DNA from: Planctomycetota bacterium
Lineage (GTDB): Bacteria; Planctomycetota; UBA1135; GCA-002748355
Reading direction: 5' to 3'
Length of the DNA: 36,066 nt
Assembly (NCBI GenBank): GCA_002685965.1
Contig: NYZE01000089.1
Location: 1-36,066 of the forward strand
Of this stretch, positions 1,905-27,274 are shown one piece after another (positions within the stretch are counted from its first letter, which is position 1; each line of letters begins with the position of its first letter). Position numbers and translations under genes: made by a program. A model generated the notes under the pieces. The model saw nothing but the letters and a program-made list of their open reading frames with translations. It made no database searches and was not told the origin of the DNA.

Positions 1905-3587
1905 CTAGTCGGCTGCGACGGTCATGTAGAAGTTCCGGTCGAGCTTGAGGTTCGTTAGCTTGGCGCCGAGGTTGATCGTGGTGGGTTTGTCGCTGACCGT
2001 GACCCGCATCTGCCGGCCGTTGATCTTCAACACCACGGGCACCCGGAAGCCGGGCACGACCTTGTCCCAGCGGAGGGACACCGAGTCACCACTCGCCGCG
2101 TAGCGCAATATCGGGATGTCGGTGGTTCGCAGATACTGATCGAAGACCAGGCTGAAGTCGAAGCCAGCTTTCTCGCTGATGAACGCTTCGACTTGTTCCG
2201 TCGTCACGGTCCGGTGCCAGAACTCGGCGTTGATGCCGCGCAACACCTCGCGCCACTTCGTGTCGTCGTCGAGGATGTGCCGCATGGTGTGCAGCATGTT
2301 GCCGCCCTTGTAATACATGTCGCCGGAACCCTCGTGGTTGAGGTTGTAGGTTCCTATGACCGGGCGCCGGTTGCGGATCAACTTGCGGCAGCCGATGACA
2401 TAGCGTGCCGCCTCTACCTTCGTGAAGTGGTAGTTGACGAAGAGGTTCTCCGCGTAGTTCGCGAAGCTCTCGTGGATCCACATATCGGCGGCGTCCCTCA
2501 TCGAGACGTTGTTGCCGAACCACTCGTGCGTGGACTCGTGGATGATGATGAAGTCGAACTTGAGGCCGACACCCGTGAGGCTCAGGTCGCGGCCGCGATA
2601 TCCATTCTTGAACCCGTTGCCGTAGGTGACCGAGCTCTGGTGCTCCATGCCCAGGTAGGGGACGACGACGAGTTTGTAGCTATCTTCGTAGAATGGGTAT
2701 GGCCCGAACCAGTGCTCGAAGGCGGCGAGCGTGCGCGGGACTTCGGTGAACTGCCTCGTCGCCGCTTCGACCTGGTGTTCGAGGACCCAGTACTCAAGAT
2801 CAAGCGTGCCGCGCTCACCCTGGTACGTTCCCGGTAGGCGGACGTAGTTGCCGATGTTGACGTTCACGCCATAGTTGTTGATCGGGTTGGTGACGCGCCA
2901 GTGAAAGGTCTTCGTTTTGGCCGCGGCATCGTGCTTCGTATCGCGGAGCCGACCGTTCGACACCGCGGTCAGCGCCTCTGGCACGGTAACGCGGATGTCC
3001 ATGCCGGTGTCGGGCTCGTCGGCGCCGTGGTCCTTGTTCGGCCACCAGATACTCGCGCCGATGCCTTGGCACGTGGTGGCGATGAAGGGATTGCCCTTTG
3101 CGTCGGTCTTCCACGAGAAGCCGCCGCTCCACGGCGGCCTGACGCTCTCGGTCGGCTTGCCCTCATAGAAGACCTGGATGCTGTCTTCGACCGAGGCCGC
3201 AAGCGGCGTCGGCAGCTCAATCCAGTAGCACTTGCCCTCGCGTTCGAAGGTCAACTCGTCTGTGCCGTGGGTCACGCGCGTGATCTCGAGCGGCGGCTGC
3301 AGGTCGATCTGCATCCGGTCGCCGCCTGTCACGGTCTTGAACGAGATGATGTTCGAGCCCTTGATGCTCTTCGTCTCGAGGAAGACCTGCACCCGCAAGT
3401 CGTAGTGCTGCAGGTCCCACCAGGCGCGCTCCGGGGTGATGGACCCACGCAGGTGATCCTGCCGTGTGAAGCCCCTCGGGAGAGGGACGGGAGCCTCGGG
3501 GATCGTGCGTTGTCCGGTCGACGCGACGCAAGTGGCGAGGGTGCAGGCCAACGGGAGGATGAGGAATGGCCGGTGAGTCGAGGGCAT
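1905..3587 (-). CDS. Secreted M1-family zinc metallopeptidase (aminopeptidase type)
   Basis: A 560-aa gluzincin with the zinc motif HESTHEWFGNN (His350, Glu351, His354) and the third ligand Glu373 in WIHESFANYAE, giving the exact HExxHx18E spacing. A GMEHQSS segment about 30 residues earlier matches the M1 GxMEN-type substrate motif. An N-terminal beta-saddle domain precedes the catalytic domain. The frame runs open to 3839, but the best start is ATG 3587 (MPSTHRPFLILPLACTLATC), which begins a signal peptide; the ATLATC region may be an imperfect lipobox. A longer start would overlap the divergent SDR gene. Expected role: aminopeptidase in the periplasm or at the cell surface. It lacks the long C-terminal helical domain of large PepN-type enzymes. 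No clear Shine-Dalgarno is visible. Confidence 0.9.
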   Translation of the reverse strand: MPSTHRPFLILPLACTLATCVASTGQRTIPEAPVPLPRGFTRQDHLRGSITPERAWWDLQHYDLRVQVFLETKSIKGSNIISFKTVTGGDRMQIDLQPPLEITRVTHGTDELTFEREGKCYWIELPTPLAASVEDSIQVFYEGKPTESVRPPWSGGFSWKTDAKGNPFIATTCQGIGASIWWPNKDHGADEPDTGMDIRVTVPEALTAVSNGRLRDTKHDAAAKTKTFHWRVTNPINNYGVNVNIGNYVRLPGTYQGERGTLDLEYWVLEHQVEAATRQFTEVPRTLAAFEHWFGPYPFYEDSYKLVVVPYLGMEHQSSVTYGNGFKNGYRGRDLSLTGVGLKFDFIIIHESTHEWFGNNVSMRDAADMWIHESFANYAENLFVNYHFTKVEAARYVIGCRKLIRNRRPVIGTYNLNHEGSGDMYYKGGNMLHTMRHILDDDTKWREVLRGINAEFWHRTVTTEQVEAFISEKAGFDFSLVFDQYLRTTDIPILRYAASGDSVSLRWDKVVPGFRVPVVLKINGRQMRVTVSDKPTTINLGAKLTNLKLDRNFYMTVAAD

Positions 3588-3738: not shown

Positions 3739-5316
3739 TTGAGTTTTGATCCGACCGAACCAAACGCCGCCGACGCTGCACCGAGTGCGGAGGAGACGAT
3801 CGTCGGCATCGAAGCGCTCCTCGCCGACCGCCGCCGCATGCTCGAGTTGTCGACCGAGATGCGCGAGCGCTTGCTGACGGCCTGCGGGCGCTTGGCCCGG
3901 CCCGACTACAAAGAGAAGTCGGCCTACAACAAGGCGCGGCGTCGCAAGCGGACAGCCGAGCGCAAACAAGCTGACGAGGCCGTGCTTGAGCGGACACGGA
4001 TCCGTTCGCAGCGGATCGCGCTCGTCTACCCGACGCCCCTGCCCGACGGTTCCGGCGATGTCGATGCGGGTGGAGTCCCCGCTACCCCGCCATCGCCGGG
4101 AAGCGTGCGCTTGGCGCGCAACTGCTACATCTGCAAGGCGGATTACCACGAAGTGCATGGCTTCTACGATGCCATGTGTGGCAAGTGCGCCGACCTCAAC
4201 TGGGAGAAGCGGAACCAGACCGCGGACCTCGGCGGGCGCGTCGCGCTATTGACCGGCGGCCGCGTCAAGATCGGTTACCAGGCGGGGGTCAAGCTGCTGC
4301 GCGCTGGTGCTCACTTGATCGTCACGACGCGCTTTCCCCGCGATGCAGCCGTGCGCTACGCCGGCGAGCCGGACTTCGAGGAATGGTGCGACCGCCTGGC
4401 GATCTACGGACTAGACCTACGCCACACGCCGAGCGTCGAAGCGCTCTGTAGTCATTTGCACAAGAAGTACCAGCGGCTCGACTTCCTTGTCAACAACGCG
4501 TGCCAGACCGTGCGCCGCCCGCCGGGGTTCTATGCGCACTTGATGGAAGCCGAGGCTCACCTGCTCGCGACACTGCCGAACACGGCGCGCGGGGTCGTTG
4601 CCGACTACGAGGCGCTGCGCCAGCGCGGTGAACTGCTCGACGCGGCCGCGCACGGCCCAAGCACCAGCCAACCGAGCCTCGCAGGCGCTTCGGGTTCCGA
4701 CCGTGTCGGCATCGATCGGGCAGCGGCGTTGTCACAGCTCGCGCTGGTCGACGGCGACGCTGACATGAGCGAAGTGCTGTTCCCGACCGGAAGGCTCGAT
4801 GCCGACCTTCAGCAGGTGGACCTGCGCGACCGCAACAGCTGGCGCCTGGCTCTGGCGGAAGTGCCAACCGTGGAGTTGCTCGAGGTGCACCTTGTCAACG
4901 CCGTCGCTCCCTTCGTGTTCAACGCTCGCTTGAAGCCGTTGATGCTGCGCGCCAATGACCGCGACAAGCACGTCGTCAATGTCTCGGCGATGGAGGGTCA
5001 GTTCTACCGAGCGTTCAAGACGGATAAGCATCCGCACACGAACATGGCCAAGGCGTCACTCAACATGATGACACGGACGTCGGCGGCGGATTACCTGAAC
5101 GACGGGATCCACATGAACAGCGTCGACACCGGTTGGATCACCGACGAAGATCCAGCTCACTTGACCGAACTCAAGCGCCAGGAGCACGGCTTCCACACGC
5201 CGCTCGACCACGTCGACGCTGCGGCCCGCATCCTCGATCCGATCTTCCACGGCATCAACACCGGCGATCACGCCTGGGGTCAGTTCTTCAAGGACTACAA
5301 GCCGACGCGTTGGTAG
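3739..5316 (+). CDS. Zinc-ribbon-fused SDR-like NAD(P)-binding protein lacking the catalytic Tyr
   Basis: 525 aa, twice the usual SDR length. Residues 1-125 are charged and basic with likely helices (RRRMLELSTEMRERL, then KARRRKRTAERKQ). A CxxC pair at Cys129/Cys132 and another at Cys147/Cys150 form a probable zinc ribbon. The Rossmann part starts at Thr172 (TGGRVKIG), followed by LVNNA (Asn252, Asn253) and the SDR serine region NVSAMEG (Ser416). Where the family has YxxxK, the sequence reads THPHTNMAK-like: Lys438 is kept, but the Tyr position is Thr434. A dehydrogenase function is therefore uncertain; a binding or altered-chemistry role is possible. The start is TTG 3739, since an in-frame stop lies just upstream and the first Met is about 35 codons in. 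No clear ribosome site. Cytoplasmic, single gene, convergent with the sulfatase. Confidence 0.8.
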   Translation: MSFDPTEPNAADAAPSAEETIVGIEALLADRRRMLELSTEMRERLLTACGRLARPDYKEKSAYNKARRRKRTAERKQADEAVLERTRIRSQRIALVYPTPLPDGSGDVDAGGVPATPPSPGSVRLARNCYICKADYHEVHGFYDAMCGKCADLNWEKRNQTADLGGRVALLTGGRVKIGYQAGVKLLRAGAHLIVTTRFPRDAAVRYAGEPDFEEWCDRLAIYGLDLRHTPSVEALCSHLHKKYQRLDFLVNNACQTVRRPPGFYAHLMEAEAHLLATLPNTARGVVADYEALRQRGELLDAAAHGPSTSQPSLAGASGSDRVGIDRAAALSQLALVDGDADMSEVLFPTGRLDADLQQVDLRDRNSWRLALAEVPTVELLEVHLVNAVAPFVFNARLKPLMLRANDRDKHVVNVSAMEGQFYRAFKTDKHPHTNMAKASLNMMTRTSAADYLNDGIHMNSVDTGWITDEDPAHLTELKRQEHGFHTPLDHVDAAARILDPIFHGINTGDHAWGQFFKDYKPTRW

Positions 5317-9174: not shown

Positions 9175-11178
9175 TCAGTCGCTCTTCGTCCAGTAGTTGT
9201 CGCCAGGCTTGCGATCGGGAAAGCGGCGTCGGGGATCCAGGGTGATCTTCTTGATGGCGCGACCGCCGAAGTCGAGTCTCGCATCGAAGGTGCGGCTGCC
9301 GCCGAACCAGACGTCGACGGGCCAGGTCACGATCGCCGTGTGGTCGTTCACCATCTTCGCGTTCTTCATGGGGACGAGCGCCGGACCATCGCCGGCGAAC
9401 TCGATCTTGAGGACGATGGGCGAGGGCATCTGGCCGTCTTGCCGCACCGTGACGACGGTTTTTGTGCCGGATGTTGTCACCTTGGCGATGGATCCGTCCA
9501 CCGATTCGGTGGTCCATAGCCAGTAGTACCAGAACCAACCGAGGTCCCGCTCGAGCGCGTTGCTGAGGAAGAAGGCGAAGTCCCAAGGCGAGGGGTGTTT
9601 GAAGATCCATGCCTTGGTGTAGTCGCTGATAGCCTCCCGCACTGCTTCATCGCCGACGATGCCGCCGAGCATCGACAACATCAGGGTCGCCTTACGGTAG
9701 GTCTGAAAACTGTATTGACCGCCGCCGTAGTTGGAGCACCACATCATCGTCGGCTCACTCTCGTCGCCAGCGGTGCGCCCGTAACTCTGGCCGTGTCCGT
9801 CCAAGTTGGGCTCGACGCCTCGCTTGTGCGCACGCGACAGGATGTTCATGTAGCTGTTGAGCCCCTCGTCCATCCAGCCGTACCAGGTTTCGTTCGTGCC
9901 GACCATCATCGGCCACCACTGATGTGCCACTTCGTGGTCCGCCGCACCCTGGTTCGAGTTGATGACCATCGGGTACTCCATGCCGGAACTCGGGCCGTCC
10001 TGCAACGTGAGCTGCGGGAAGGCATACGGCGCCCACAGTCCGGAATAGAACTCGAGGGCGTGGCGTGTGATGGCGCCGGCGCGGTTGAACCACCTGGCAC
10101 GCTCAGGCAAGTGCACCATGTGGATCGGTATCGGACCCTTGCCGGGGATGCTCGCTCGCGTCGCCTTCCAGACGTAGTTCTCCGCCGTGGCCCAGGCGAA
10201 GTCGTTGACCAGGTCGGCAACGAAGTGCCACTCGAGGCGTTTGCCGACGGCCGTTGCCTTGCCGGGGCCGACTTCTCCGGGTCCGACGATGGTGATCTCG
10301 TCGTCGCTCTGCAGGACGCGCGCGAGTCGGTCACGCGCCTTCTTGGTGAGCACGTCTTTTGGGTTCTGCAACACTCCGGTGGCTGTCACGATCCAACCTG
10401 CTGGCACATCGATCTTCACGTCGAAGCGTCCGAAGTTGTTGAAGAACTCTGCCGGGCCGAGGTAGACGTTGGTGTCCCAGCCGCGCAGGTCGTCGTACTT
10501 GGCCAGACGCGGAAACCACTGGGTCGGTTGGAACAGCGTGTCGCCCCAGCGTTGCGTCATGCGGTGACCGCGTCCTCTGTTGCCGCCAGGCAGCTTGGTG
10601 TGCCAGTCGATCGCGACTGTGGCCTTCGTGCCAGGTTCGATCGGCTGGGTGAGCGAGATATGCGCGACGGTTTGATCCAGTCCGCGGACGCTGAGCCGCG
10701 CACCGCGATTCCGCCGGCCGCCACGGCGACCACGCCTCGGCCGCGGTGTCAGGTCGACCTTGTCCCCGTTGACGGCCAGCTTGGTCACGACCATGCCGTC
10801 GGTGGTTTCAGCCGGTACCGAGGAACCGCGCGGAACACGGGCGCGGAAGATGTTGTGATCTAGCCGCAGCACGATCTGGCGCAGCTTCCTCGTGCTGTTG
10901 TTGTGTACGACGATCGTCTGTTTGCCGAAGATGGACTGCGTCGCTCGATCGAGTCGCGCCTTGATCGTGAAGTCGGTCTGCAGTTGCCAGTACTTCGGTC
11001 CTGGCCGACCCGTCGTGTCACGCGTCCCCGCCTCGAAGGCGCGGCGGATCACCTTCGTCATCGGGATGTCCCGGCGAATGGCTCGCGTGTCCGACTCCTG
11101 AGCGGACTGTGCCGCTACCGCGGCCGGCACGAATGCGAGGGCAACGAGGACGCTCGACGGGATTTTGATGGGAGGCAA
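9175..11178 (-). CDS. Secreted M1-family metallopeptidase, second type
   Basis: 667 aa. Signal peptide MPPIKIPSSVLVALAFVPAA, cleaved around VAAQ. Zinc site HEVAHQWWP (His415, Glu416, His419) and third ligand Glu438 in GWMDEGLN, exact HExxHx18E spacing. GPSSGMEYPM just before is the GxMEN-type motif. The N-terminal beta domain carries an Arg/Gly-rich insert near residues 150-160 (PRPRRGRRGGRRNRGAR). It is only distantly related to the M1 protein at 1905-3587: active-site and flanking motifs differ, so this is not a recent duplication. It resembles M1 proteins with a membrane-associated or secreted aminopeptidase role. ATG 11178 leads straight into the signal peptide. Transcribed towards the esterase gene, possibly with it. 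Confidence 0.92.
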   Translation of the reverse strand: MPPIKIPSSVLVALAFVPAAVAAQSAQESDTRAIRRDIPMTKVIRRAFEAGTRDTTGRPGPKYWQLQTDFTIKARLDRATQSIFGKQTIVVHNNSTRKLRQIVLRLDHNIFRARVPRGSSVPAETTDGMVVTKLAVNGDKVDLTPRPRRGRRGGRRNRGARLSVRGLDQTVAHISLTQPIEPGTKATVAIDWHTKLPGGNRGRGHRMTQRWGDTLFQPTQWFPRLAKYDDLRGWDTNVYLGPAEFFNNFGRFDVKIDVPAGWIVTATGVLQNPKDVLTKKARDRLARVLQSDDEITIVGPGEVGPGKATAVGKRLEWHFVADLVNDFAWATAENYVWKATRASIPGKGPIPIHMVHLPERARWFNRAGAITRHALEFYSGLWAPYAFPQLTLQDGPSSGMEYPMVINSNQGAADHEVAHQWWPMMVGTNETWYGWMDEGLNSYMNILSRAHKRGVEPNLDGHGQSYGRTAGDESEPTMMWCSNYGGGQYSFQTYRKATLMLSMLGGIVGDEAVREAISDYTKAWIFKHPSPWDFAFFLSNALERDLGWFWYYWLWTTESVDGSIAKVTTSGTKTVVTVRQDGQMPSPIVLKIEFAGDGPALVPMKNAKMVNDHTAIVTWPVDVWFGGSRTFDARLDFGGRAIKKITLDPRRRFPDRKPGDNYWTKSD

Positions 11179-15918: not shown

Positions 15919-18900
15919 TCACCATTGGCACAGCGTCTCGACGTGCGCGGCGGAGCCGTCGCGCAGCCAGCCGTCGAGTTGGTGTGGGTCTTTGAGTTGC
16001 TGTCCGCGTGAGCGCGGGACGACGAAGAAACTCGTGTCGATGTCGGCGATGGCCGACATGTCGCCCCACAGCTTCTCGAACTGCGTGACCGGGAAGACAT
16101 CCTCCTGGCCGTGGCCCCAGCGTTTCTTGACGTCCTTCAACGCGATGTAGGTCGGCATTCTCGCCGCGGCCTTGCGCACGGCGTCGTCGACGCTGGCGGT
16201 GTCGCCGAGATCGCCGCGCGTGAGGCCCATGTAGGAGAGGAGCGCGTCGAGGTCGATCCAGGTTGTCAGCGAGTTGTAGTAGGACAGTCCGAACTCATCC
16301 TCTTTGTGCGGCATTGCTAGCCCCTCGATCAAGCGGGGGCGACCGTCGACGCTCGCGAGTCCGCCGCCGCGATCTTCCATGTGGCGCGGCGTCACCTCGA
16401 AGCTCAGACACGATCCACGCTCGATGTGCGTGCCGAGCAGCCCAGGATCGAGGTCTGCGCCGAGTGTGTCGATGTTGTGCAGTAGCAGGTAGCGCAACTG
16501 TGGCCGTTGCTCGAGCATCGCGGTCAGCACGCCGTTGCGCAGCAGGTTCGGGATCTCGAACCAGTGGCCGACCGGATGTATGCACTGCAGCGGCAAGTTG
16601 TCGGTGTAGTCGCTGCCCTCGCCCCCGTCACGCGCCCAGCCGATCAGCGCCGAGCGCAGGCTGTCCTGCACCTTCTGCGCCTGCGTGTCGAGCAGCTGCT
16701 GTGGCGTCTCTTCCCATGCAAAGCGCAGGTCCCGCTCCATCGGCACCAGGCGCAGCCCGACGGCACGGCCTAACGACAGTCGCAGGTGCTCGCGGTAGCC
16801 GTAGTAATCACGGTTCACGAGGTGCTGGGCGATTGGGTCGTGGGTGAAGAGGCTCGTCGTGAACACGTGCAACGGCCTTTGGCCGTGGTCGAGACCGGTG
16901 CGTCGGCTCTTCGCCAGGTGCACCTCGAGAAACGTGCGGTGTGCCCCCGCGAGCCGGCAGAACGGGTTGAGTGCCTTGACGACACCTGCGCCCTGGGTCC
17001 AGCGGCTGCCCGTCCCGGCAGCGAGTGTGACGACCGCGACCTCGCCGGCCGCGAGCGCAGCTTCGCCCACCTTTCGCTCTGCGTCTCGCAGATTGCCGAG
17101 TGCGTCGATCACCTGGCTCGGTTCCGCGTCGCGGATGTCGGTGTGGGCTGGAAGGCGATTTTGTGCGAGACCGATCCGGCCCTCGCGAAGGTCGGCACGG
17201 ATCTCTTCATGGGAGATCCGATCGAAGCCCCCGTCCTCGAGCAGTTGCGACAGCGATGTCGTTCTCTCGGTGCTGCCGGGGCGATCGAGTTCGATGTGCC
17301 GCATGCTGGGAAGCCGCGCGTCGCCGCGCAGCATGGAACATTCGGTACCGCGTTCGTTGATCTCGAAGTCGTAGACGACCGGATCCATCGCGAATGGCAA
17401 GCCGCTTTCCAGGTCGCGCTTGGTCGTGGTCATGATCTCGAGCAGATCCTCCTGCGCAGCTGGTCGGGCGTCCGGTTTGAACAAGAACCCCATGCCGCCT
17501 CCCGTCATGCCGCCGAGCATGCAGAACCCGAGGTAGGCGGCGCCGTGCCGTTCGCGGACGGTGCGGATGACTCTCTCCGTGAACTCGTTGGACGCCCACG
17601 GGATGATCCCCTGGATCGGTCCTTCGAAGTTGTGGCTCGTGGCGGCGCCGATCGCAGCAACGTCGCCGTTCTTCAGCGCGGCGAGGATCGAGGTCAAGAC
17701 GCCGAGGGCTTCCTGCCGACTGTCCCATTCCTGCTGCGAGCGCAGCAGGTACTTCTCGGTCACCATCTCGAGGACCGGGCCAACGTTCTGCGCCATGCCA
17801 CCGTGCACCAGCACTAGGCTGTCCCGAAGCTCGCGCCGGACCTCCGGGTTCGCGTCGTCGTCACCGAGAACGCGGTGACCGGGCAACAGTCTGCCGCGGC
17901 TGATGCCGTATTCGGGGTCGCCGACCTCCGCGCGTTGGCCGGTGATCAGTTTCATCCCGGGCCAGAGACCTCCCGAGTCCTGCCAACCGCCACCGGAACC
18001 GCCGAGCCACTCGCCGAGGATGGCGCGAGCCGCGGCGAGCCGACGTTCGTCTTCCGAGAGGACGCCTTCCATGCTGGTTGTCTGCCCGGTCGCGCGCATG
18101 CACACGGTGATCAAGGAAGCGAGCAGGTTGGTTGACACGGCGAGGCGCGAGCCCTTCGGGATCCCATGCACGTGGCTGACGATCTCCAGACCACGGCCGG
18201 GGCCCGCCATGGTCGCGAGCAGGTCCGCGAGGTCTTCACCTGAGCCCTCGATCCCGGGAGGGACCGTGCCCGACGCGATCACCGCCGCCTTGAGCAGGCC
18301 CAAGTAGTCCTTCGCGTAGTCGAAGACTTCGGCCAGTTCGGTGATATCCGCCGTTGCGCCGAGGTCGACGCTCGTCAATCGAAGCAGCGGCTCGTCGATG
18401 ACCCGTAGGAAGGTCTCGATGGGGGGCTGCGGCTCCCCGTCGCGACCGTGCACTGCCAGGTCGACCGAGACGTTGAGCACCTTCGCGGCCTCGGGGTAGT
18501 CCATGCCGAGGAAGAAGATGTCGCTCCACGCGCTGTGGGTGAGATCCACGCGCACGGGGGTCTGCTCGCGCAGCAGCGGATAGGGCGCGCCGGCCAAGAG
18601 CTCCGGGCGGATGCGCAGAGGCTGGTCCTTGGAGTGATCGATGCTGAACATCCACTGGTTGCCGTGCGAAGACTGAACACTGCGGCGCACCTGGTCGGCC
18701 AGGGTCTGGAAGGCGAGCGCGTGGTAGGCCGCGCTGAGCGCGCTCGAGATCGCGTCGCTGGGTCCGTTCGCTTCTTGGGCAGCGAGGAAGACCAGGATCG
18801 CTTCCTCGAAGCGCCGCGACAGGAGCAGGTCGTAGCCATCGAACGGGATCAGGCCGCGGAGCTCGAGGTCGTCACAGCGCGGCAAGTAGAAGCGGTGGAT

Positions 18901-19086
18901 CGCGGACAGAAAGAACAGCGCGCGGACGCGATGGTAGAGGTTGGTGGTCGCGTGTCGGAAACGGTCGAGGGCAGCGCACTCGTTCAGTAATGCCGACAGT
19001 GTCATGTCCCGGCACGGACGCTCGAGCGGCGTGTTACGGACGTCCGGGTCGTCGGACTCGATGATCGTGATCAGGTGGCTTGTCAT
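15919..19086 (-). CDS. Bifunctional GHMP sugar kinase / UGPase-like sugar-1-phosphate nucleotidyltransferase
   Basis: 1055 aa, two enzymes in one chain. Residues 1-170 are mostly helical and unrecognised. Residues 175-540 match fucokinase-type GHMP kinases: PVRVDLTHSAWSDI (177-190), PKGSRLAVSTN (310-320), the fucokinase hallmark GGGWQD (365-370) followed by GGLWPGMKLI, and the glycine-rich GGMTGGGMGFLF (525-536). The ATP loop is degenerate (usual PxGxGLGSSA). After a linker, residues 685-950 form a nucleotidyltransferase: VTLAAGTGSRW (687-696) with a candidate Lys704, PVGHWFEIPNLL (838-849) and HNIDTLGADLD (870-880), as in UDP-sugar pyrophosphorylases. Expected: sugar + ATP to sugar-1-P, then NDP-sugar, in the cytoplasm. 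FKP/FKGP fusions have the pyrophosphorylase first; here the kinase is first. Start ATG 19086. It is divergent from the Gfo-PfkB-epimerase operon. Confidence 0.85.
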   Translation of the reverse strand: MTSHLITIIESDDPDVRNTPLERPCRDMTLSALLNECAALDRFRHATTNLYHRVRALFFLSAIHRFYLPRCDDLELRGLIPFDGYDLLLSRRFEEAILVFLAAQEANGPSDAISSALSAAYHALAFQTLADQVRRSVQSSHGNQWMFSIDHSKDQPLRIRPELLAGAPYPLLREQTPVRVDLTHSAWSDIFFLGMDYPEAAKVLNVSVDLAVHGRDGEPQPPIETFLRVIDEPLLRLTSVDLGATADITELAEVFDYAKDYLGLLKAAVIASGTVPPGIEGSGEDLADLLATMAGPGRGLEIVSHVHGIPKGSRLAVSTNLLASLITVCMRATGQTTSMEGVLSEDERRLAAARAILGEWLGGSGGGWQDSGGLWPGMKLITGQRAEVGDPEYGISRGRLLPGHRVLGDDDANPEVRRELRDSLVLVHGGMAQNVGPVLEMVTEKYLLRSQQEWDSRQEALGVLTSILAALKNGDVAAIGAATSHNFEGPIQGIIPWASNEFTERVIRTVRERHGAAYLGFCMLGGMTGGGMGFLFKPDARPAAQEDLLEIMTTTKRDLESGLPFAMDPVVYDFEINERGTECSMLRGDARLPSMRHIELDRPGSTERTTSLSQLLEDGGFDRISHEEIRADLREGRIGLAQNRLPAHTDIRDAEPSQVIDALGNLRDAERKVGEAALAAGEVAVVTLAAGTGSRWTQGAGVVKALNPFCRLAGAHRTFLEVHLAKSRRTGLDHGQRPLHVFTTSLFTHDPIAQHLVNRDYYGYREHLRLSLGRAVGLRLVPMERDLRFAWEETPQQLLDTQAQKVQDSLRSALIGWARDGGEGSDYTDNLPLQCIHPVGHWFEIPNLLRNGVLTAMLEQRPQLRYLLLHNIDTLGADLDPGLLGTHIERGSCLSFEVTPRHMEDRGGGLASVDGRPRLIEGLAMPHKEDEFGLSYYNSLTTWIDLDALLSYMGLTRGDLGDTASVDDAVRKAAARMPTYIALKDVKKRWGHGQEDVFPVTQFEKLWGDMSAIADIDTSFFVVPRSRGQQLKDPHQLDGWLRDGSAAHVETLCQW

Positions 19087-19208: not shown

Positions 19209-19430
19209 GGCAGTAGAGCCTAAATCACTGCCGGGTCGAGGTCGTTAGAGCTTCTACGGTTCCTTCGTGGGCCGATCGTTCGCGGCTGCTTGGACTGTCA
19301 CTGTCGAACATGGTCGAACTGCGCTACCCGTCGTCGCTTCGTGTCGTTCGGTGAGACATCAAGAAAGTCGACGGATCCCTGCAAGCGGAGAGAGGCTTCG
19401 CTGCCATCGGATCGGTAGCGTGTGACTGCC

Positions 19431-20801
19431 ATGAAGACGCAACACACGCGACGTGACTTTCTCCACACTTCGGCCGCCGCGGGCCTTGGCCTGGCCACGA
19501 TGGGTTGTGCTGCGGGCACCTGGGGTGGGTCGGGGAAGCTACGCGTGCTGTCGATTGGTGTCATCGGCACGATCGGCGGCACGGACCGTAAGCAGATCCA
19601 CACGCATCCGGACGCCGAGGTGGTTGGGCTGTGTGACGTCGACAGCAACCAGCTGAAGAAGGCAGCCGAGCAGATACCGACCGCGTTTACCTGCCGCGAC
19701 TATCGCGAAGCCTTCGCCTCTCACGCTGACGACTTCGACGCCGTGATCGTGTCGACTCCAGATCACTCGCATGCGCCGATCATGTTGACGGCCTTCCAGC
19801 ACGACAAACACGTGTATGGACAGAAGCCCCTCGTCCATCAGCTCGAAGAACTCGTGATGATGGAGAAGGCGATCGCTACCAAGCCGCACCTCGTTACCCA
19901 GCTCGGCAATCAGCGGATGGTGAAACCCGGTCGACGCGCCGCAGTGGAGATCCTGCGTCAGGGACAGCTCGGCAAGGCGATCGAGGCGCACTGCTGGACG
20001 AGCTCGCCGAACAAGGGACGCTACTTCAACTTCGAACGCCAGCTGCACGAGCCGAGCCAGGCGCCGAAGCATCTCGATTGGAACCTGTGGCTCGGCCCGT
20101 GCGCGGAAGCGCCGTTCCGCAAGGACCTCGCCCCGATCAAGTGGCGCTCGTGGTGGGAATACGGCACAAACGGGCTTGGCGACTGGGGCTGCCATATTCT
20201 GGACGTCGTGCTGTTTGCCTACGACGACCTAGCCTCACCTGTTGCTGTACAGACGCAGTGTGCCGAGTCGGCGGGCGATCACTTTCACGTGCACCCGTGC
20301 CGCTCGAAGATCACCTACGCTGTCGACTCGAACAAGTTCGCCAAGGAGTCGTTCGTGATTCACTACAGCGACAGCAGGCAGCATCCGTCGCGCAGCGTCC
20401 TCGGTTTGCCCGATGACGCCTGGCTCGGCAGCAACAGCACCGTGGTGGTGTGCGAGGGCGGCACACTGGTCCTCGAGGCGAGCGGTCGTCTCGAGATCTG
20501 GCGTGATGGGAAGATGACGCAGGGTTTGAAGATGCCGAACCTCCCGGCGTTCCCGAAGCTCAATCACTGGCATGCCTGGGTCGACAACTGTCTCGGCAAG
20601 AAGACCGAGCTGCGGACGCCGTTCAAGGATGCGGTGCGCATCACCGAGCCTGCCCTGCTCGCCGTCAAGGCGACGCGGTTCCCGGGCGTCGAACTGCACT
20701 GGGACAAGTCCAAGCTCGCGTTCACGAACCACGACGAGGCAACCAAGACGATCGTCAAGCGTGCCTATCGAGGGGGCTTCGCGCCGCCAGCGGTTGCCTG
20801 A
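19431..20801 (+). CDS. Tat-exported Gfo/Idh/MocA family oxidoreductase
   Basis: 456 aa. The N-terminus (MKTQHTRRDFLHTSAAAGLG) carries a twin-arginine signal (RRDFL) and a Cys in ATMGCAAG that could be lipidated. A Rossmann domain begins at LSIGVIGTIGGTDR, then VVGLCDVDSNQL, VSTPDHSHAPIML and VYGQKPL; in the last, the usual EKP is QKP, with the Lys kept. The C-terminal alpha/beta domain has WNLWLGPCAEAPF and GDWGCHILDVVLF, typical of planctomycete members. Expected: NAD(P)-dependent oxidation of a sugar or sugar derivative, folded in the cytoplasm and exported with cofactor. ATG 19431 is preferred to GTG 19422 because it begins the Tat signal. First gene of a probable three-gene operon (11 bases to the PfkB gene). 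Confidence 0.9.
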   Translation: MKTQHTRRDFLHTSAAAGLGLATMGCAAGTWGGSGKLRVLSIGVIGTIGGTDRKQIHTHPDAEVVGLCDVDSNQLKKAAEQIPTAFTCRDYREAFASHADDFDAVIVSTPDHSHAPIMLTAFQHDKHVYGQKPLVHQLEELVMMEKAIATKPHLVTQLGNQRMVKPGRRAAVEILRQGQLGKAIEAHCWTSSPNKGRYFNFERQLHEPSQAPKHLDWNLWLGPCAEAPFRKDLAPIKWRSWWEYGTNGLGDWGCHILDVVLFAYDDLASPVAVQTQCAESAGDHFHVHPCRSKITYAVDSNKFAKESFVIHYSDSRQHPSRSVLGLPDDAWLGSNSTVVVCEGGTLVLEASGRLEIWRDGKMTQGLKMPNLPAFPKLNHWHAWVDNCLGKKTELRTPFKDAVRITEPALLAVKATRFPGVELHWDKSKLAFTNHDEATKTIVKRAYRGGFAPPAVA

Positions 20802-20812
20802 GAACGCACGCG

Positions 20813-21784
20813 ATGGGCTGGCTCGAATCCGCATTCGAACTCGTGGAGCGCGCTCAGGTTGCCGTTTGTGGCGACTTCGCGCTCGACGCCTACTGGGACC
20901 TGGACCAGTCGTGCACGGAGCTTTCGTTCGAGACCGGCAAGGCGGTGCGACGGGTTGTCGCACAGCGTTATGGCCTGGGCGGCGCCGGCAACGTTGCGGC
21001 TAATGCGAGGAGCCTCGGGGCCCGTGGCGTGCGGGCGATCGGGTTGGTGGGCGACGATCCGTTCGGTGCCGAGCTGCGTGCGCAGCTCGAGCGGTTCGGC
21101 GTGGACGTGTCGGGGATGGTCGACGGCGGTGATCTCTGGCAAAGCGTTGTCTACGCCAAGCCGCACGTCAGTAACCGAGAGCAGGAACGACTCGACTTCG
21201 GTGCCGCCAACCGGCTGACGCCGGCGCTGACCGAGGCCCTCGTCGACCAGTTGGACCGAGCGGCGCATGACTGCGATGCCGTGGTCCTCAATCAGCAGAT
21301 CGATGATGGTGTTGCCACCGGCGCGATGATCGAGCGGATCAACGAAGTGATTGCACGGCACCCGGACCGGGTCTTCGTCGTTGATTCTCGTCATCGCGCG
21401 ACGGCGTTCCGCGGTGCGGTTCTGAAGTGCAATGCGCATGAGGCAGCAGCGCTTTGCGGCGCCGCTGGCTCTGACGTCGGGGCGTGCGCACGCAGGTTGC
21501 GCGAATGCACAGGCCAGACAGTGTTCGTGACCTGCGGGCGCGACGGGTTGCTCGTCGCCGACGAGTCGGGCGTGCATGCAGTCGCCGGCGTTGACGTCAG
21601 CGCGCCGGTCGATCCTGTCGGTGCCGGTGATACGGTCGTCGCCGCATTGGCCGGAGTGCTCGGCTGCGGCGGCGATGCGATTACCGCAGCGCGTCTTGCG
21701 AATTTGGCCGCTGCCGTGACCGTGCAGAAACTCGGGACCACCGGGACCGCGACGCCGGGAGAGATCCGCCGGCTGCATTCATGA
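20813..21784 (+). CDS. PfkB-family carbohydrate kinase, heptose-kinase (RfaE1)-like
   Basis: 323 aa ribokinase-fold kinase. The start VAVCGDFALDAYWDLDQ and the glycine-rich GLGGAGNVAANARSLGA resemble the D-beta-D-heptose-7-phosphate kinase (RfaE1/HldE) branch. The family signature DPVGAGDTVVAAL carries the catalytic Asp273 and anion hole GAGD (270-273). VFVTCGRDGLLV precedes it, as usual. Expected: ATP-dependent phosphorylation of a sugar or sugar phosphate in the cytoplasm. It lacks the C-terminal nucleotidyltransferase domain of HldE. It follows the Gfo gene by 11 bases, and its stop overlaps the next start (ATGA at 21781), indicating translational coupling with the epimerase. Substrate uncertain; a heptose or hexose is possible. 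Confidence 0.87.
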   Translation: MGWLESAFELVERAQVAVCGDFALDAYWDLDQSCTELSFETGKAVRRVVAQRYGLGGAGNVAANARSLGARGVRAIGLVGDDPFGAELRAQLERFGVDVSGMVDGGDLWQSVVYAKPHVSNREQERLDFGAANRLTPALTEALVDQLDRAAHDCDAVVLNQQIDDGVATGAMIERINEVIARHPDRVFVVDSRHRATAFRGAVLKCNAHEAAALCGAAGSDVGACARRLRECTGQTVFVTCGRDGLLVADESGVHAVAGVDVSAPVDPVGAGDTVVAALAGVLGCGGDAITAARLANLAAAVTVQKLGTTGTATPGEIRRLHS

Positions 21785-23043
21785 GTGCCCCGAACATCCG
21801 CATCACGCTCGAACGCACTCGCTGCTACCTCACCGAAGTACTGTTGCCGTTCTGGATCGATCGTGCCCCGGATCCAGACTTCGGTGGCTTCCTGACCTAC
21901 TTCGACGGCGCCGGCAGGCCGACCGGGGAAACGGCCAAGACCTTCCTGATGCAGGTGCGCACGCTCTACACGATGGCGAGCGCACACCGCGCCGGGTACG
22001 GCGGCGGGCGCTGCGCCGAACTGGCGCACGAGGCGGCGCGCTTCCTGATCGACCACTACTGGGACGACGAGCACGGTGGCTGGTATTGGAGTGCGGACCG
22101 GCACGGGCGACCGACCTCTACCGGCAAGATCGGCTACGGCCAGTGCTTCGCGATGTATGCCTTCGGTGAGTATCACTTGGCGACCGGCGTCGCAGAGGGT
22201 CGTGATGCGATGGAACGCACGCTGGCGGTGGTCGAGGAGCGCATGGTCGACCGCGAGCGTGGCGGCTACTTCGAGATCATGCAGCGCGACTTTCAGCCCG
22301 AGCGTCCCGGCCGGCACGGCGGCGACCGCAAGAGCTTCGACGTGCACATGCACATGATGGAGGCGCTGACCAAGGTATTCGAGGTCACCGGCGACGCCGC
22401 CCATCGGGCCCGCTTGGTCGAGGTCATCGACCTGATCGTCGCCAAGATGCTCGATCCAACCCACGGCACGGGCATCCAGCAGTTCTCGCTCGACTTCGAG
22501 CCGTTGCCGTCGATCGAGTTCGACGTGCGGTGGGGGCGCGACGCCGATGCCGAGGCAAAGCCGATCGATGTCACGTCGTACGGCCACAACGTCGAGTTCG
22601 CCTGGCTTCTACAAGTGGCGGCCGTCACGCTCGGCATGCCCAGCCAGCGTTACGCCGACGTCTGCACCAAGCTCTACGCGCACTGCCTGCGGTTCGGCAT
22701 CGATGCGGAATACGGCGGCGTCTACATCGAGGGCAAGATCGACGCCGTACCCGCCGATCGTGAAAAGCAGTTCTGGCAGCAGGCCGAGGTGATGGTCGGG
22801 ATGCTTGATGCATGGACCTTGCTCGGCGATCCGAGGTACTTCGACGCCTTCGAGAACGTGCACGCCTTCGTCTTCGACAAGTTTGTCAACCTGCCGGCCG
22901 GTGGCGAATGGCGTGCGCTTGTCGATCGCGAGGGGGCACCGGTGTGGGACTACCTCGGTGATGCCTGGAAGATCAACTACCACACGGTGCGCGCGATGAT
23001 CGAAGTCGTGCGGCGACTCACGGCGCGACTGGAGACGGTGTAG
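21781..23043 (+). CDS. AGE-family sugar 2-epimerase/isomerase (cellobiose/mannose 2-epimerase type)
   Basis: 420 aa, the length of the (alpha/alpha)6-barrel AGE superfamily. The catalytic-His blocks are all present: SFDVHMHMMEAL (His189/His191), SYGHNVEFAWLL (His269), QFWQQAEVMVGM and KINYHTVRAM (His401). This pattern is closer to cellobiose 2-epimerase and mannose isomerase/epimerase than to N-acetylglucosamine 2-epimerase. Expected: interconversion at C2 of a free sugar or the reducing end of a disaccharide, in the cytoplasm; no signal peptide is present. ATG 21781 overlaps the upstream TGA. Together with the PfkB kinase it would provide an epimerised, phosphorylated sugar, perhaps for the kinase-pyrophosphorylase transcribed in the opposite direction. 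Confidence 0.9.
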   Translation: MSAPNIRITLERTRCYLTEVLLPFWIDRAPDPDFGGFLTYFDGAGRPTGETAKTFLMQVRTLYTMASAHRAGYGGGRCAELAHEAARFLIDHYWDDEHGGWYWSADRHGRPTSTGKIGYGQCFAMYAFGEYHLATGVAEGRDAMERTLAVVEERMVDRERGGYFEIMQRDFQPERPGRHGGDRKSFDVHMHMMEALTKVFEVTGDAAHRARLVEVIDLIVAKMLDPTHGTGIQQFSLDFEPLPSIEFDVRWGRDADAEAKPIDVTSYGHNVEFAWLLQVAAVTLGMPSQRYADVCTKLYAHCLRFGIDAEYGGVYIEGKIDAVPADREKQFWQQAEVMVGMLDAWTLLGDPRYFDAFENVHAFVFDKFVNLPAGGEWRALVDREGAPVWDYLGDAWKINYHTVRAMIEVVRRLTARLETV

Positions 23044-23187
23044 GTGATGCGGGCTTGCGTTTCATGACCTACGATGTCTCGCCATGAGCTGGTTTAAGGG
23101 AGGCATCCACGACCTGCGCACCGGTGGAAGCGGCGGCCGCGTCCTCAAGGCCTCCCCGTCTCCATGCCCTGGCCCACGCCCGTTCCC

Positions 23188-26100
23188 ATGCGTTTGACCA
23201 CGCTTTTTCAGGCCGTCTGCCTTGTCGCGACGATCTCCCAATCCACCGCCGCGCAGGCGTTGGAGCGCGAACTCCTGGCGCTCGGTTCTGCAAAGCTTGC
23301 GGCGGCGGCGCGCGCGCAGGGCGATGCCAAGCGCGGTGCGGTGGTCTTCTTTCAGAAGCGACTCAACTGCACGCGGTGTCACGTTCCCGATGCGAAGGTT
23401 CATCGGCTCGGTCCGGATCTCACCGAGCTCGCCAGCGATACGACCGACGTCTACCTGGTCGAGTCGATCCTCACTCCGTCCAGGGTCATCCGCAAGGGCT
23501 TCGAGCACATGGTGCTGGAGACCGAGGAAGGCACGGTCACGGGCATGCTCGCCCGGGAGACCGCAACGGAGCTGGTGATTCTGGACGCGGCGCGTGACTA
23601 CAAGGAGGCTCGCTTCAAGAAGTCGAAGCTCGAAGAGTTCTTTCGCGACAGCGCTTCAAGCATGCCGTCGGGCCTCGTCAACCCGCTGACGAGTCAGCAG
23701 CAGTTCCTCGACCTCGTGCGCTATCTGATCGAGATCCGCGACGGTGGCAAGACCCGCGCCGACGAGTTGGAACCCGATCCATCGCTGTATGCCGAGCGTC
23801 CGTTGCCCGCCTACGAGAACGACATCGACCATGCCGGCATGATCCGAGCTTGGAACGAAGATGCATTCAAGCGGGGCAAGAAGCTCTACGGCCTTTCATG
23901 CAGCAACTGCCACGGCACCAGAGGCGAGCCGGGCTCGCTGCCGACGTCGTTGAAGTTCTGGTCGGGTGAGTTCAAGAACGGCAACGATCCCTATGTCATG
24001 TACCGCACGTTGACGCACGGGTTCGGGATGATGACGGCGCAGACCTGGATGGTCCCGTCGCAGAAGTACGACGTCATCCACTACGTCCGCGAGGCCTTCC
24101 TCAAGCCATACAACCCCGCGCAGGTGTTCGCGGTCAGTGATGGCTACCTCGCGAACCTGCCGAAGGGAAAGTCACGCGGGCCCGCGCCATCCAGGACGTC
24201 GCCGTGGCAACGGATGGACTACGGTCCGAATCAGTGTCTGACGCTCGAGATCGGCGACGACGCGAAGAATTTCGCCTACAAGGGCAACGCCATCCGGCTT
24301 GATGCCGGACCCGGAGGCGTGGCCGAGGGCGGCTACTGGATGGCCTACGACTACGACACGCTTCGTGTGGCGGCAGCGTGGACCGGCAAGGGCTTCGTCG
24401 ACTGGAACTGCATCCACTTCAACGGCAAGCACAACGTGCACCCGCGCCTGGTCGGTGAACTGCGGCTCGCCAACCCGACCGGACCGGGTTGGGGACGTCC
24501 GGCCGACGGCAGCTTCCGCGACACACGGCTCGTTGGCCGCGATGGGCGGTTGTATGGCCCACTGCCACGGAAGTGGGCGCAGTACAAGGGCATGTACTAT
24601 CACGGTCCGGACACTCTGGTCGAGTACACCGTCGGTGCCACGCGCGTGCTTGAGATGCCGGAGGTGCAGATCGTCGAGCCGCAGCCGGTGTTCCGGCGCG
24701 TGTTCAATGCCGGCCCACGCAAGACCGACCTCGTGCTACAGGTTGCACATAGCGATGCCGCTGCCAAGCTGACGGTCAAGGGAGGTGTTGCGGTGTTCGG
24801 GTCCGCGCCGCCGAAGCCGGACGCTCTTCTGGTTGGTGACGCATCCAGGTTGAACGGTGGTACGCGGCTCGACGTCACGAACACGGTGGGTCTCAACGTC
24901 GGCGCCGGGGACTTCACGCTGACGGCGCGCATCAAGACCAGACACGACGGAACGATACTCGCGCAGACAACGTCATCGCTCGTGTGGCCACACGACGGGC
25001 TCACCTGGTTCATCCGCAACGGCAAGCTGACCGTAGACATCGGTTGGGTTGGTGCGTTCTCCGGTAACCGAAGAGTTGCAGACGGCAAGTGGCACGACCT
25101 CGCCTTCTGCTATGCCGCGAAGACGGGTACGATCCGGTTCTACATCGACGGAAAGCCCGAGCAACGCACGGGCAAGCTGCGCCGCAAGGCGCCACTGAAG
25201 AAGCCGATCGTGCGCATCGGTTGCACGGCGGAGAACTTTCCGCGGCGTTCGTTCTTTGATGGCACGATCAAGGAGGTTCGGTTCTTCAACTCAGTGCTCG
25301 GCGATGACGAGATCAAGCACCTCGACGGGCAGCGCCCGGCGGCGCATTGGGAGCTCGGGTCGGTTGTGGCCAGCGGCGTCAGTGACAAGACTGGCAACGG
25401 CCACGCCGCGACCGTTTTTGAAGGCAAGAGAGCGGCAGCGCCGAGTCGGGTCGTCGGGTTCACGGTGGCCGGGTTTGCGGGTGACGTCGCGGGCTTCGAG
25501 TGGCGGGCGGACAAGGGCGACCTGAGGCTGAAGATTCCGGCAGGCGCCGAGCCGCGCGCGTTCACGGTGTGGTTTGCGGCAGTAAAGGAAGAGAAGCTCG
25601 CGGCCACAGTTGCCGATGCCGTCGTCATCGACGATCCCGACCAGGATCTGACGGTCAAGACCAAGGGTGGTTCGGCGCGTTGGCCGCACGTGCTGACGAC
25701 ACGCGCGATGCTCGGCAACAGCGATGAACCGTTCGCGATCGACGTCCTCAAACGACCGACCGACAACCCGTGGTTCTGCCGCATGCGGCTGACGGGATTC
25801 GACTTCACCGGGGACGGCGACTCGCTGATCGCCAGCGCCTGGGACGGGAGCATCTGGAAGGTGTCGGGTCTCGCTGCCCTGGACGGGAAGACGACGAAGC
25901 AGTTCGTCTCGCTCACCTGGCGGCGCATCGCATCTGGTCTGTTCCAGCCGCTCGGTGTCAAGATTGTCAACGGTCGCACCTACGTCACGTGTCGCGATCA
26001 ACTGTGTGTTCTGCACGACCTGAACGGTGATGAGGAGATCGACTGGTTCGAGTGCTTCAACAACGACCACCAGGTCACCGAGCACTTCCATGAGTTCGCG

Positions 26101-27072
26101 ATGGGCCTACAGGCGGACGCTGAAGGAAACTTCTACTACGCCAAGTCCGCGCGACACGCCAAGACGGCGATCGTGCCGCACCACGGCACGCTGCTCCGGA
26201 TCAGCAAGGACGGGCAGCGCACCGACATCATCGCCAACGGATTCCGCGCGGCGAACGGCGTCTGCCTGAACCCGGACGGCACGTTCATCGTCACGGATCA
26301 GGAAGGCCACTGGAACCCGAAGAATCGCATCAACTACGTCAAGCCTGGCGGGTTCTACGGGAACATGTATGGCTACCACGATGTCACCGACGCATCCGAT
26401 AGCGCGATGCAGCAGCCGTTGGTTTGGATCACGAACAGCTTCGATCGTTCGCCTGGCGAGTTGCTCTGGGTCGATAGCCCAAAATGGGGGCCCCTGAACA
26501 AGCGCTTGCTGAACCTCTCGTACGGCTACGGCATGGTCTACATCGTTCCGCACGAGACCGTGAACGGTCAGGAGCAAGGAGGGGTGTGTGCCTTCCCGAT
26601 CGAGCGTTTCCCCACGGGCGTGATGCGCGGGCGCTTTCATCCGCAAGACGGTCAGCTCTACCTGGCCGGCATGTTCGCTTGGTCCGGCAGCCAGACGCAG
26701 CCGGGTGGGCTGTACCGCTTGCGCTACACGGGCAAGCCCGTGCACTTGCCGGTCGAGCTAGGCGCGACGAAGCGTGGCGTTTCGGTCACCTTCAGCGGCA
26801 AGCTCGACCCGAAGTCGGCGACGTCGACGGCGAGCTACAAGGTCAAGGTCTGGGACCTCAAGCGCACCAAGAACTATGGTTCCAAGCACTTCAACGAACG
26901 GACACTCCCCGTTGCCGCGGCACGCATCGATGCAGATGGCCGCACCGTGCACCTCGAAATCCCCAAGGTAGGACCGACCTGGGGAATGGAGATCAAGTAC
27001 GAGGTGCGGTCCGTGGCGGGCAAGTGGATCAAGGGCAAGATCCACAACACGATTTACCACCTGCAGGACTAG
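23188..27072 (+). CDS. Secreted diheme cytochrome c / LamG / beta-propeller protein
   Basis: 1294 aa from ATG 23188 (signal MRLTTLFQAVCLVATISQST, then AAQ; an upstream ATG at 23164 adds eight residues). Two c-type heme sites: CTRCH (codons 23368-23382), embedded in a planctomycete heme domain with the following LGPDLTELA, VESILTPSRVIRKGFE and YLIEIRD pattern, and CSNCH (23899-23913) in a second cytochrome domain with Met ligands likely near FGMMTAQTWMVPSQ. A DUF6797-like beta region follows, then a LamG/concanavalin-like domain (about 24880-25330: GAGDFTLTARIKT, DGKWHDLAFCY, FYIDGKPEQRTG, DGTIKEVRFFN). A six-bladed propeller of the membrane-bound-dehydrogenase type follows (about 25750-26740; FRAANGVCLNPDGTF). 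Probable periplasmic redox enzyme for carbohydrates; substrate unknown. Confidence 0.88.
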   Translation: MRLTTLFQAVCLVATISQSTAAQALERELLALGSAKLAAAARAQGDAKRGAVVFFQKRLNCTRCHVPDAKVHRLGPDLTELASDTTDVYLVESILTPSRVIRKGFEHMVLETEEGTVTGMLARETATELVILDAARDYKEARFKKSKLEEFFRDSASSMPSGLVNPLTSQQQFLDLVRYLIEIRDGGKTRADELEPDPSLYAERPLPAYENDIDHAGMIRAWNEDAFKRGKKLYGLSCSNCHGTRGEPGSLPTSLKFWSGEFKNGNDPYVMYRTLTHGFGMMTAQTWMVPSQKYDVIHYVREAFLKPYNPAQVFAVSDGYLANLPKGKSRGPAPSRTSPWQRMDYGPNQCLTLEIGDDAKNFAYKGNAIRLDAGPGGVAEGGYWMAYDYDTLRVAAAWTGKGFVDWNCIHFNGKHNVHPRLVGELRLANPTGPGWGRPADGSFRDTRLVGRDGRLYGPLPRKWAQYKGMYYHGPDTLVEYTVGATRVLEMPEVQIVEPQPVFRRVFNAGPRKTDLVLQVAHSDAAAKLTVKGGVAVFGSAPPKPDALLVGDASRLNGGTRLDVTNTVGLNVGAGDFTLTARIKTRHDGTILAQTTSSLVWPHDGLTWFIRNGKLTVDIGWVGAFSGNRRVADGKWHDLAFCYAAKTGTIRFYIDGKPEQRTGKLRRKAPLKKPIVRIGCTAENFPRRSFFDGTIKEVRFFNSVLGDDEIKHLDGQRPAAHWELGSVVASGVSDKTGNGHAATVFEGKRAAAPSRVVGFTVAGFAGDVAGFEWRADKGDLRLKIPAGAEPRAFTVWFAAVKEEKLAATVADAVVIDDPDQDLTVKTKGGSARWPHVLTTRAMLGNSDEPFAIDVLKRPTDNPWFCRMRLTGFDFTGDGDSLIASAWDGSIWKVSGLAALDGKTTKQFVSLTWRRIASGLFQPLGVKIVNGRTYVTCRDQLCVLHDLNGDEEIDWFECFNNDHQVTEHFHEFAMGLQADAEGNFYYAKSARHAKTAIVPHHGTLLRISKDGQRTDIIANGFRAANGVCLNPDGTFIVTDQEGHWNPKNRINYVKPGGFYGNMYGYHDVTDASDSAMQQPLVWITNSFDRSPGELLWVDSPKWGPLNKRLLNLSYGYGMVYIVPHETVNGQEQGGVCAFPIERFPTGVMRGRFHPQDGQLYLAGMFAWSGSQTQPGGLYRLRYTGKPVHLPVELGATKRGVSVTFSGKLDPKSATSTASYKVKVWDLKRTKNYGSKHFNERTLPVAAARIDADGRTVHLEIPKVGPTWGMEIKYEVRSVAGKWIKGKIHNTIYHLQD

Positions 27073-27274
27073 CGGTGTGAACCCGGGTGCCAGCATCCCG
27101 CCACCGACTTGCGTGCGCCTTGCTCGTGTCCTTTTGGCGCAGAGTTCCCAAGGTCCTTGGCGTTGGTGGTGAGTGGCCGCGTAGCTAGGACCGCTTCTTG
27201 GTCAGGCGTCATGGAGGATGACATCCGATCGCTTCCTGGCACACTGGGCGCGTCCGAGAGTCATTGGAGGCCCC

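Follow-up and report, generated by a model that had tools for sequence, protein, structure and literature searches.

A widespread bacterial SDR-fold family with replaced catalytic serine and tyrosine positions and an attached putative zinc finger

SDR proteins form one of the largest enzyme superfamilies, and the tyrosine of their YxxxK motif is the textbook catalytic residue. Some SDR-like proteins lack this tyrosine, among them isoflavone-reductase-like and NmrA-like proteins. In the available text of PMC11614110, a solved tyrosine-less SDR from Burkholderia cenocepacia (BcSDR) is described as carrying LxxxK, binding NADP+, keeping its serine (Ser131), and holding an ordered water in place of the tyrosine. 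Its authors classed the protein as divergent and, in that text, left its mechanism open (PMC11614110). We note that divergent or atypical SDR is a loose grouping and not a family by descent.

Here we describe a protein encoded in a 36,066-nucleotide stretch of DNA from a Planctomycetota bacterium (contig NYZE01000089.1, hereafter the window), for which a prediction had been made from the sequence alone. The start codon of its 525-residue open reading frame is the TTG at position 3739, the sole in-frame ATG, GTG, or TTG before the first conserved residues (first 24 codons read). The only Pfam matches were generic SDR models, PF13561 (adh_short_C2, E 4.8e-14) and PF00106 (adh_short, E 9.7e-14), both above cut-off, and none of the 25 NCBIfam models among the matches listed reached its curated cut-off. 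An AlphaFold2 model made from a 94-row alignment (mean pLDDT 89.4, pTM 0.88) placed N-terminal helices at residues 17–92, a small strand-strand-helix domain at 121–158, and an SDR fold from about residue 162. This model matched 1,872 solved chains in Foldseek at E 0.001 or better, and in VIA-align the SDR part and tropinone reductase I could be aligned over 237 residues (Z 24.5, rmsd 3.0), with the next rows tied; structural matches to classical SDRs reached Z of about 23–24.5 across about 220–245 residues. Pfam, AlphaFold2, and Foldseek agree on a Rossmann alpha/beta fold with a recognizable SDR profile, which places the protein in the SDR superfamily. With classical SDRs (tropinone reductase, FabG-type, and gluconate 5-dehydrogenase; PF00106/PF13561), it has in common the fold, the NNA motif, the helix-4 asparagine, and the YxxxK lysine. 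Unlike them, the family to which it belongs, here the zinc-finger SDR family, has alanine for serine, threonine for tyrosine, and lysine for the middle glycine of the glycine motif, together with an inserted segment of about 100 residues and an N-terminal putative zinc finger (Table 1).

Table 1. Features of the window protein, with positions in the window and the evidence for each.
Feature	Position	Strand	Basis or remark
CDS, 525 aa	3739-5316	+	Basic helical N-terminus, putative zinc finger, and an SDR fold that carries an inserted segment
N-terminal helical region, residues 17-92	3787-4014	+	Helices in AlphaFold2 model; basic
Treble-clef-like putative zinc finger, residues 121-158	4099-4212	+	Element order in predicted models; weak fold matches
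C129xxC132, putative first metal-ligand pair	4123-4134	+	Invariant in 108/108 rows
C147xxC150, putative second pair	4177-4188	+	Invariant in 108/108 rows; at the start of helix 148-158
Glycine-rich motif TGGRVKIG, residues 172-179	4252-4275	+	Lys177 for middle Gly of TGxxxGxG
TTRF after strand 2, invariant Arg198	4324-4335	+	Alignment; published position rule for NADP-binding SDRs
NNACQT, NNAG-motif equivalent	4492-4509	+	N253, A254, Q256, T257 invariant in 108/108
Inserted segment between strand 4 and helix 4	4522-4866	+	Variable length; D361, N366, W368 invariant
Asn387, tetrad Asn equivalent	4897-4899	+	Invariant in 108/108; aligns with helix-4 Asn of solved SDRs
NVSAMEG, Ala417 at catalytic Ser position, then invariant Glu419	4978-4998	+	Profile alignment
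HPHTNMAK, Thr434 and Lys438 in YxxxK register, invariant His431 and His433	5029-5052	+	108-row alignment
DTGW, PG-motif equivalent after strand 6	5125-5136	+	Alignment of 108 rows
K518-D519-Y520, end of strand 7	5290-5298	+	Only Tyr invariant across rows

The search for the same architecture that had been proposed as a check recovered a whole family with 108 aligned relatives, and the observation describes a widespread bacterial family rather than a single odd protein. Relatives in genome contigs were found with six peptide patterns, two of which touch motifs counted here (HGFYDAMC and FKTDKHPH), and the best 80 of the 173 relatives showed 47–66% identity in their best segment. Further members came from genomes of relatives, from four plasmids (Streptomyces, Tsukamurella, and Deinococcus), and from one viral contig (L111); the scan pattern for L111 was [KR]HPHTNM, and the other later rows were scored on the whole protein or by profile. 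The alignment combines 94 rows with 14 divergent rows. Three rows were dropped from it, L081 for being the window itself and L082 and L083 for being duplicates, and loci L116–L135 and profile matches without a locus, nine regions excepted, lie outside it. Two members at 43–46% identity, WP_068741945.1 (Tsukamurella) and WP_239051890.1 (Deinococcus), carry the CxxC pairs and HTNMAK; RefSeq labels both "SDR family NAD(P)-dependent oxidoreductase," which is silent on the finger and on the missing serine and tyrosine. Because genome pipelines call the family an ordinary SDR, reactions predicted from the label are probably wrong.

The central claim of the original prediction, that Thr434 stands in for the YxxxK tyrosine while the lysine is retained, extends to the whole family. 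Thr434 and Lys438 are each invariant (108/108), as are the four cysteines of the CxxC pairs, which is more conservation than chance would give, and the surrounding motif reads HPHTNMAK in 107 rows and HVHTNMAK in one. For comparison, YxxxK was kept in all 18 control SDRs from the window genome and related genomes (22 loci were given, 18 passed the profile cut of E 1e-3, and YxxxK was called by pattern and by judging the stretch by eye). In the profile alignment to solved SDRs, Thr434 falls on the tyrosine, Ala417 on the serine, and Asn387 on the helix-4 asparagine, all three of which are catalytic in the solved proteins. The Asn-Ser-Tyr-Lys tetrad reads Asn-Ala-Thr-Lys in the window protein, with the asparagine kept in every row.

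Judged from this alignment, the departure is larger than first noted, in that the catalytic serine position is replaced as well. Where classical SDRs have a serine about 13–14 residues before the tyrosine, Ala417 is found in 107 of the 108 rows, the exception being the divergent member L141 with serine. Ala417 and Thr434 lie 17 residues apart in 91 of 94 rows and 16 apart in the other three, compared with 14 between Ser144 and Tyr158 of SmSDR (available text of PMC5797133). Residue 416 is serine in 101 rows and threonine in seven, which puts a hydroxyl one residue before Ala417 in all 108 rows. An off-by-one alignment at Ala417 keeps some small probability, but the model ends the strand at residue 416, where it should end.

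Compared with BcSDR, the zinc-finger SDR family shows a similar replacement of the YxxxK tyrosine, conserved among each protein's own relatives, and a similar NADP-type glycine motif (available text of PMC11614110). BcSDR differs in having leucine at the tyrosine position, in keeping Ser131, and in its standard TGxxxGxG, and the available text mentions no zinc finger (PMC11614110). By alignment, and as far as that text describes BcSDR, the zinc-finger SDR family departs further, with serine and tyrosine both gone and the finger always attached. The window protein falls within the divergent or atypical SDRs as the term is used in the available text of PMC11614110, with an SDR fold, an NAD(P) site recognized by motif, and an altered YxxxK.

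L141 (G241:C199) is the most divergent member. It has NVTSAEG, with the serine at the catalytic position, RVRIG, and DPGW, and still has HPHTNMAK and the four cysteines. This member is a possible intermediate form linking ordinary SDRs with the zinc-finger SDR family.

We considered whether another tyrosine takes over catalysis, the outcome that had been named as counting against the original prediction, with the QFYRAF stretch as an example. Tyr423 of that stretch is tyrosine in only 65 of the 108 rows and is therefore rejected as the replacement, and Tyr265 is present in 99 and hence also not invariant. The only invariant tyrosine is Tyr520 (107/107 rows having a residue there), just after the last strand and near the C-terminus. 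Classical SDR chemistry with a relocated tyrosine, in which Tyr520 of the same or an adjacent subunit gives the phenol, would use this residue, yet it leaves the loss of the serine unexplained, and the equivalent segment is not catalytic in classical SDRs. We regard it as highly improbable.

Conservation in the family is concentrated around the replaced residues. Positions invariant in all 108 rows include C129, C132, C147, C150, G173, R175, G179, R198, F199, N253, A254, Q256, T257, N366, W368, N387, E419, G420, H431, H433, T434, N435, K438, D463, G465, and W466. Glu419, His431, His433, Thr434, and Asn435 are new invariant polar residues of the catalytic loop and the helix start. Across residues 411–440, 10 of 30 positions are invariant, whereas the SDR part in its entirety has 47 of 364 (hypergeometric p 0.002, which is optimistic in that the region was picked after the alignment was viewed). 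The loop is the less certain part of the AlphaFold2 model, with mean pLDDT of 84 for residues 411–420 and 68 for 421–430, and any positions of His431, His433, Glu419, and Tyr520 around the nicotinamide are putative. Serine and tyrosine are lost, yet invariant positions are denser in the catalytic loop than in the core as a whole. A rebuilt active site accounts for this better than decay, although the conservation pattern also fits non-catalytic ligand binding. The original prediction had left open a non-classical or a non-enzymatic Rossmann protein; the first description is supported, as essentially every member has lost two of the four tetrad residues, and the second is not favored given the invariant-dense catalytic loop and the retained cofactor residues.

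On the cofactor side, the predicted glycine motif TGGRVKIG is present, and its family form is TG[AGS]R-x-KIG, with an SG start in five rows. The middle glycine of the classical TGxxxGxG is replaced in all 108 rows, by lysine in 107 and by arginine in one. Since 2 of the 18 control SDRs with YxxxK are also without this glycine, its loss is not special when taken alone. Retained cofactor-side residues are TGxR-x-KIG, R198, D226, NNA, and K438, and these motifs point to NAD(P)(H) binding by the window protein. According to the available text of PMC11614110, NADP-binding SDRs carry a basic residue in two regions, the glycine motif and near the end of strand 2. Arg175 and Arg198 occupy these positions, so the window protein would be expected to prefer NADP(H). 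The inserted segment lies at about residues 262–376 in the AlphaFold2 model and is roughly 100 residues long.

The N-terminal part of the protein bore out most of what had been predicted for it. The two CxxC pairs before the SDR core are present, and their four invariant cysteines suggest bound zinc. The basic coiled region corresponds to the predicted helices at 17–92; the net charge of residues 37–96 is +10 in the window protein and positive in 92 of 92 relatives having the region. This region is not universal and is unaligned in L113, the Deinococcus plasmid member, which retains the finger and the SDR core.

The fold name given to the finger fared less well. A zinc ribbon has two knuckles on beta-hairpins within a three-stranded sheet, and a treble clef has a knuckle, a hairpin, and then a helix bearing the second ligand pair. 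Predicted alone (47 residues, pLDDT 92.4), the finger runs strand, CxxC, strand, helix, with the second CxxC at the helix start, an order that fits a treble clef and not a zinc ribbon. Its structural matches are weak (best Foldseek E 0.36, best Z 3.1) and include ribosomal proteins, GATA3, a nuclear-receptor finger, RING domains, and 2ds8 (ZBD-XB complex), among them several treble-clef folds. Because of this element order and these matches, the finger is probably treble-clef-like, and the name zinc ribbon is probably wrong. Single-member Pfam matches of the finger were weak and spread across numerous zinc families, pointing to no one named family, and its search against PDB sequences gave no match better than E 0.07. 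Searches of open-licence PMC listed no paper on this zinc finger-SDR fusion, and they brought up no assay.

These N-terminal features bear on the main rival explanation, a serious one, in which the protein binds NADPH without catalysis. Its SDR fold would sense a metabolite or the NADPH/NADP+ ratio, while a partner protein or nucleic acid would be contacted by the finger and the basic helices. The loss of two tetrad residues, the basic helical region in 92 of 92 rows, and the weak resemblance of the finger to nucleic-acid-binding fingers (ribosomal proteins, GATA3, nuclear receptor) are all consistent with such a role. However, the unusual richness of the catalytic-side loop in invariant positions argues against it, as does the shorter member L113, where finger and SDR core remain though the basic region is unaligned, and the finger matches reach Z 3.1 at most. 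Overall, we consider a non-catalytic role unlikely, though deserving of weight.

We propose, with confidence evenly split for and against, that the window protein is an NADP(H)-dependent SDR-fold oxidoreductase with rebuilt, non-classical acid-base chemistry, as the alignment and model suggest. NADPH would bind with Lys438 holding the nicotinamide ribose, and the tyrosine's part in proton transfer would fall to one of the new invariant residues, most likely His431 or His433 acting with Thr434 or Glu419. The substrate would be polar, with conserved residues in the inserted segment and in the loop following strand 4 (Q256, T257, R260, N366, and W368) holding it. The putative zinc finger would be structural, or may dock a partner or nucleic acid jointly with the basic helices. 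An alternative arrangement would have Thr434, Lys438, and a bound water transfer the proton, with the histidines merely shaping the loop. Thr434 is indeed invariant in the tyrosine register, and an ordered water occupies the tyrosine's place in the LxxxK enzyme BcSDR, but BcSDR keeps the serine that is lost in the window protein (Ser131; available text of PMC11614110), and this version offers no reason why His431, His433, and Glu419 never vary; we find it improbable. Returning to the rebuilt active site, we suggest, more tentatively and with doubt outweighing belief, that the family is a widespread SDR-fold clade in which a histidine-based relay (His431/His433, Thr434, and Glu419) replaces the serine-tyrosine pair and a treble-clef-like finger is obligatory, and that it represents an undescribed SDR reaction class. 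A family spread across many phyla with a fixed loss of serine and tyrosine, a kept cofactor site, and a dense set of new invariant polar residues offers a clean natural test of which other residues can carry out this chemistry.

The gene has a patchy distribution. Rows with a phylum in the record title cover 14 nominal phyla, led by Myxococcota (26) and Planctomycetota (21), plus one Deinococcota plasmid row; we note that most rows are metagenome bins, whose titles may mislead on phylum. Of 392 genomes from the phylum of the window, 52 had a strong match (E 1e-40 or better). Family-level matches (E < 1e-50) occurred in 16 of 61 genomes including the window's own, which has one copy, and in none of the seven other genomes of the bacterium's own taxonomic family. 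Two family-level copies (G032:C22 and G032:C205) were seen in one genome of the same order. A fast tree required 23 label changes for 14 phyla, where the least possible is 13, which hints at transfer or loss of the gene and is not proof of either. One contig binned as Klebsiella pneumoniae (L062), whose member groups with uncultured Gammaproteobacteria, is probably a mislabelled metagenome bin.

Searches of phage records gave no match at E 1e-10 and, with the limit relaxed to E 1, just short matches that cover ordinary SDR stretches, and beyond these records the one viral match was the L111 contig. PADLOC gave no match that would suggest a defense role. A match to PHROG 3142 was set aside as a phage clue; it is a generic SDR model that also matches in 14 of 14 control genomes.

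No neighbor gene was conserved in the loci compared. In 37 of 93 loci, the upstream open reading frame lay on the same strand no more than 150 bp away; the downstream one did so in 32. Among 67 close neighbors scanned (hand-picked from 165 of at least 100 residues, a few slightly more than 150 bp away), any given Pfam family matched two at most, and clustering of all neighbor reading frames gave no obvious shared partner, with some of the larger non-target clusters overlapping the target in other frames. In the window, the gene is flanked by a peptidase-M1-like gene in divergent orientation and a sulfatase in convergent orientation, and these flanking genes give no clue to the substrate.

Elsewhere in the window, five same-strand reading frames at 19422-28189 (+) encode a Gfo/Idh/MocA oxidoreductase, a PfkB kinase, a GlcNAc 2-epimerase-like protein, a 1302-residue DUF6797/cytochrome c/laminin-G protein, and a xylose-isomerase-like TIM barrel; by these annotations, the set looks like a sugar-catabolism cluster. 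A 1055-residue reading frame at 15919-19086 (-) has only a weak UDP-glucose pyrophosphorylase-like match, at residues 845–952; Pfam gave nothing at E 1e-5 for its long N-terminal part. Peptidase M1 domains occur in two separate same-strand reading frames within about 9 kb, at 1905-3587 (-) and 9175-11178 (-).
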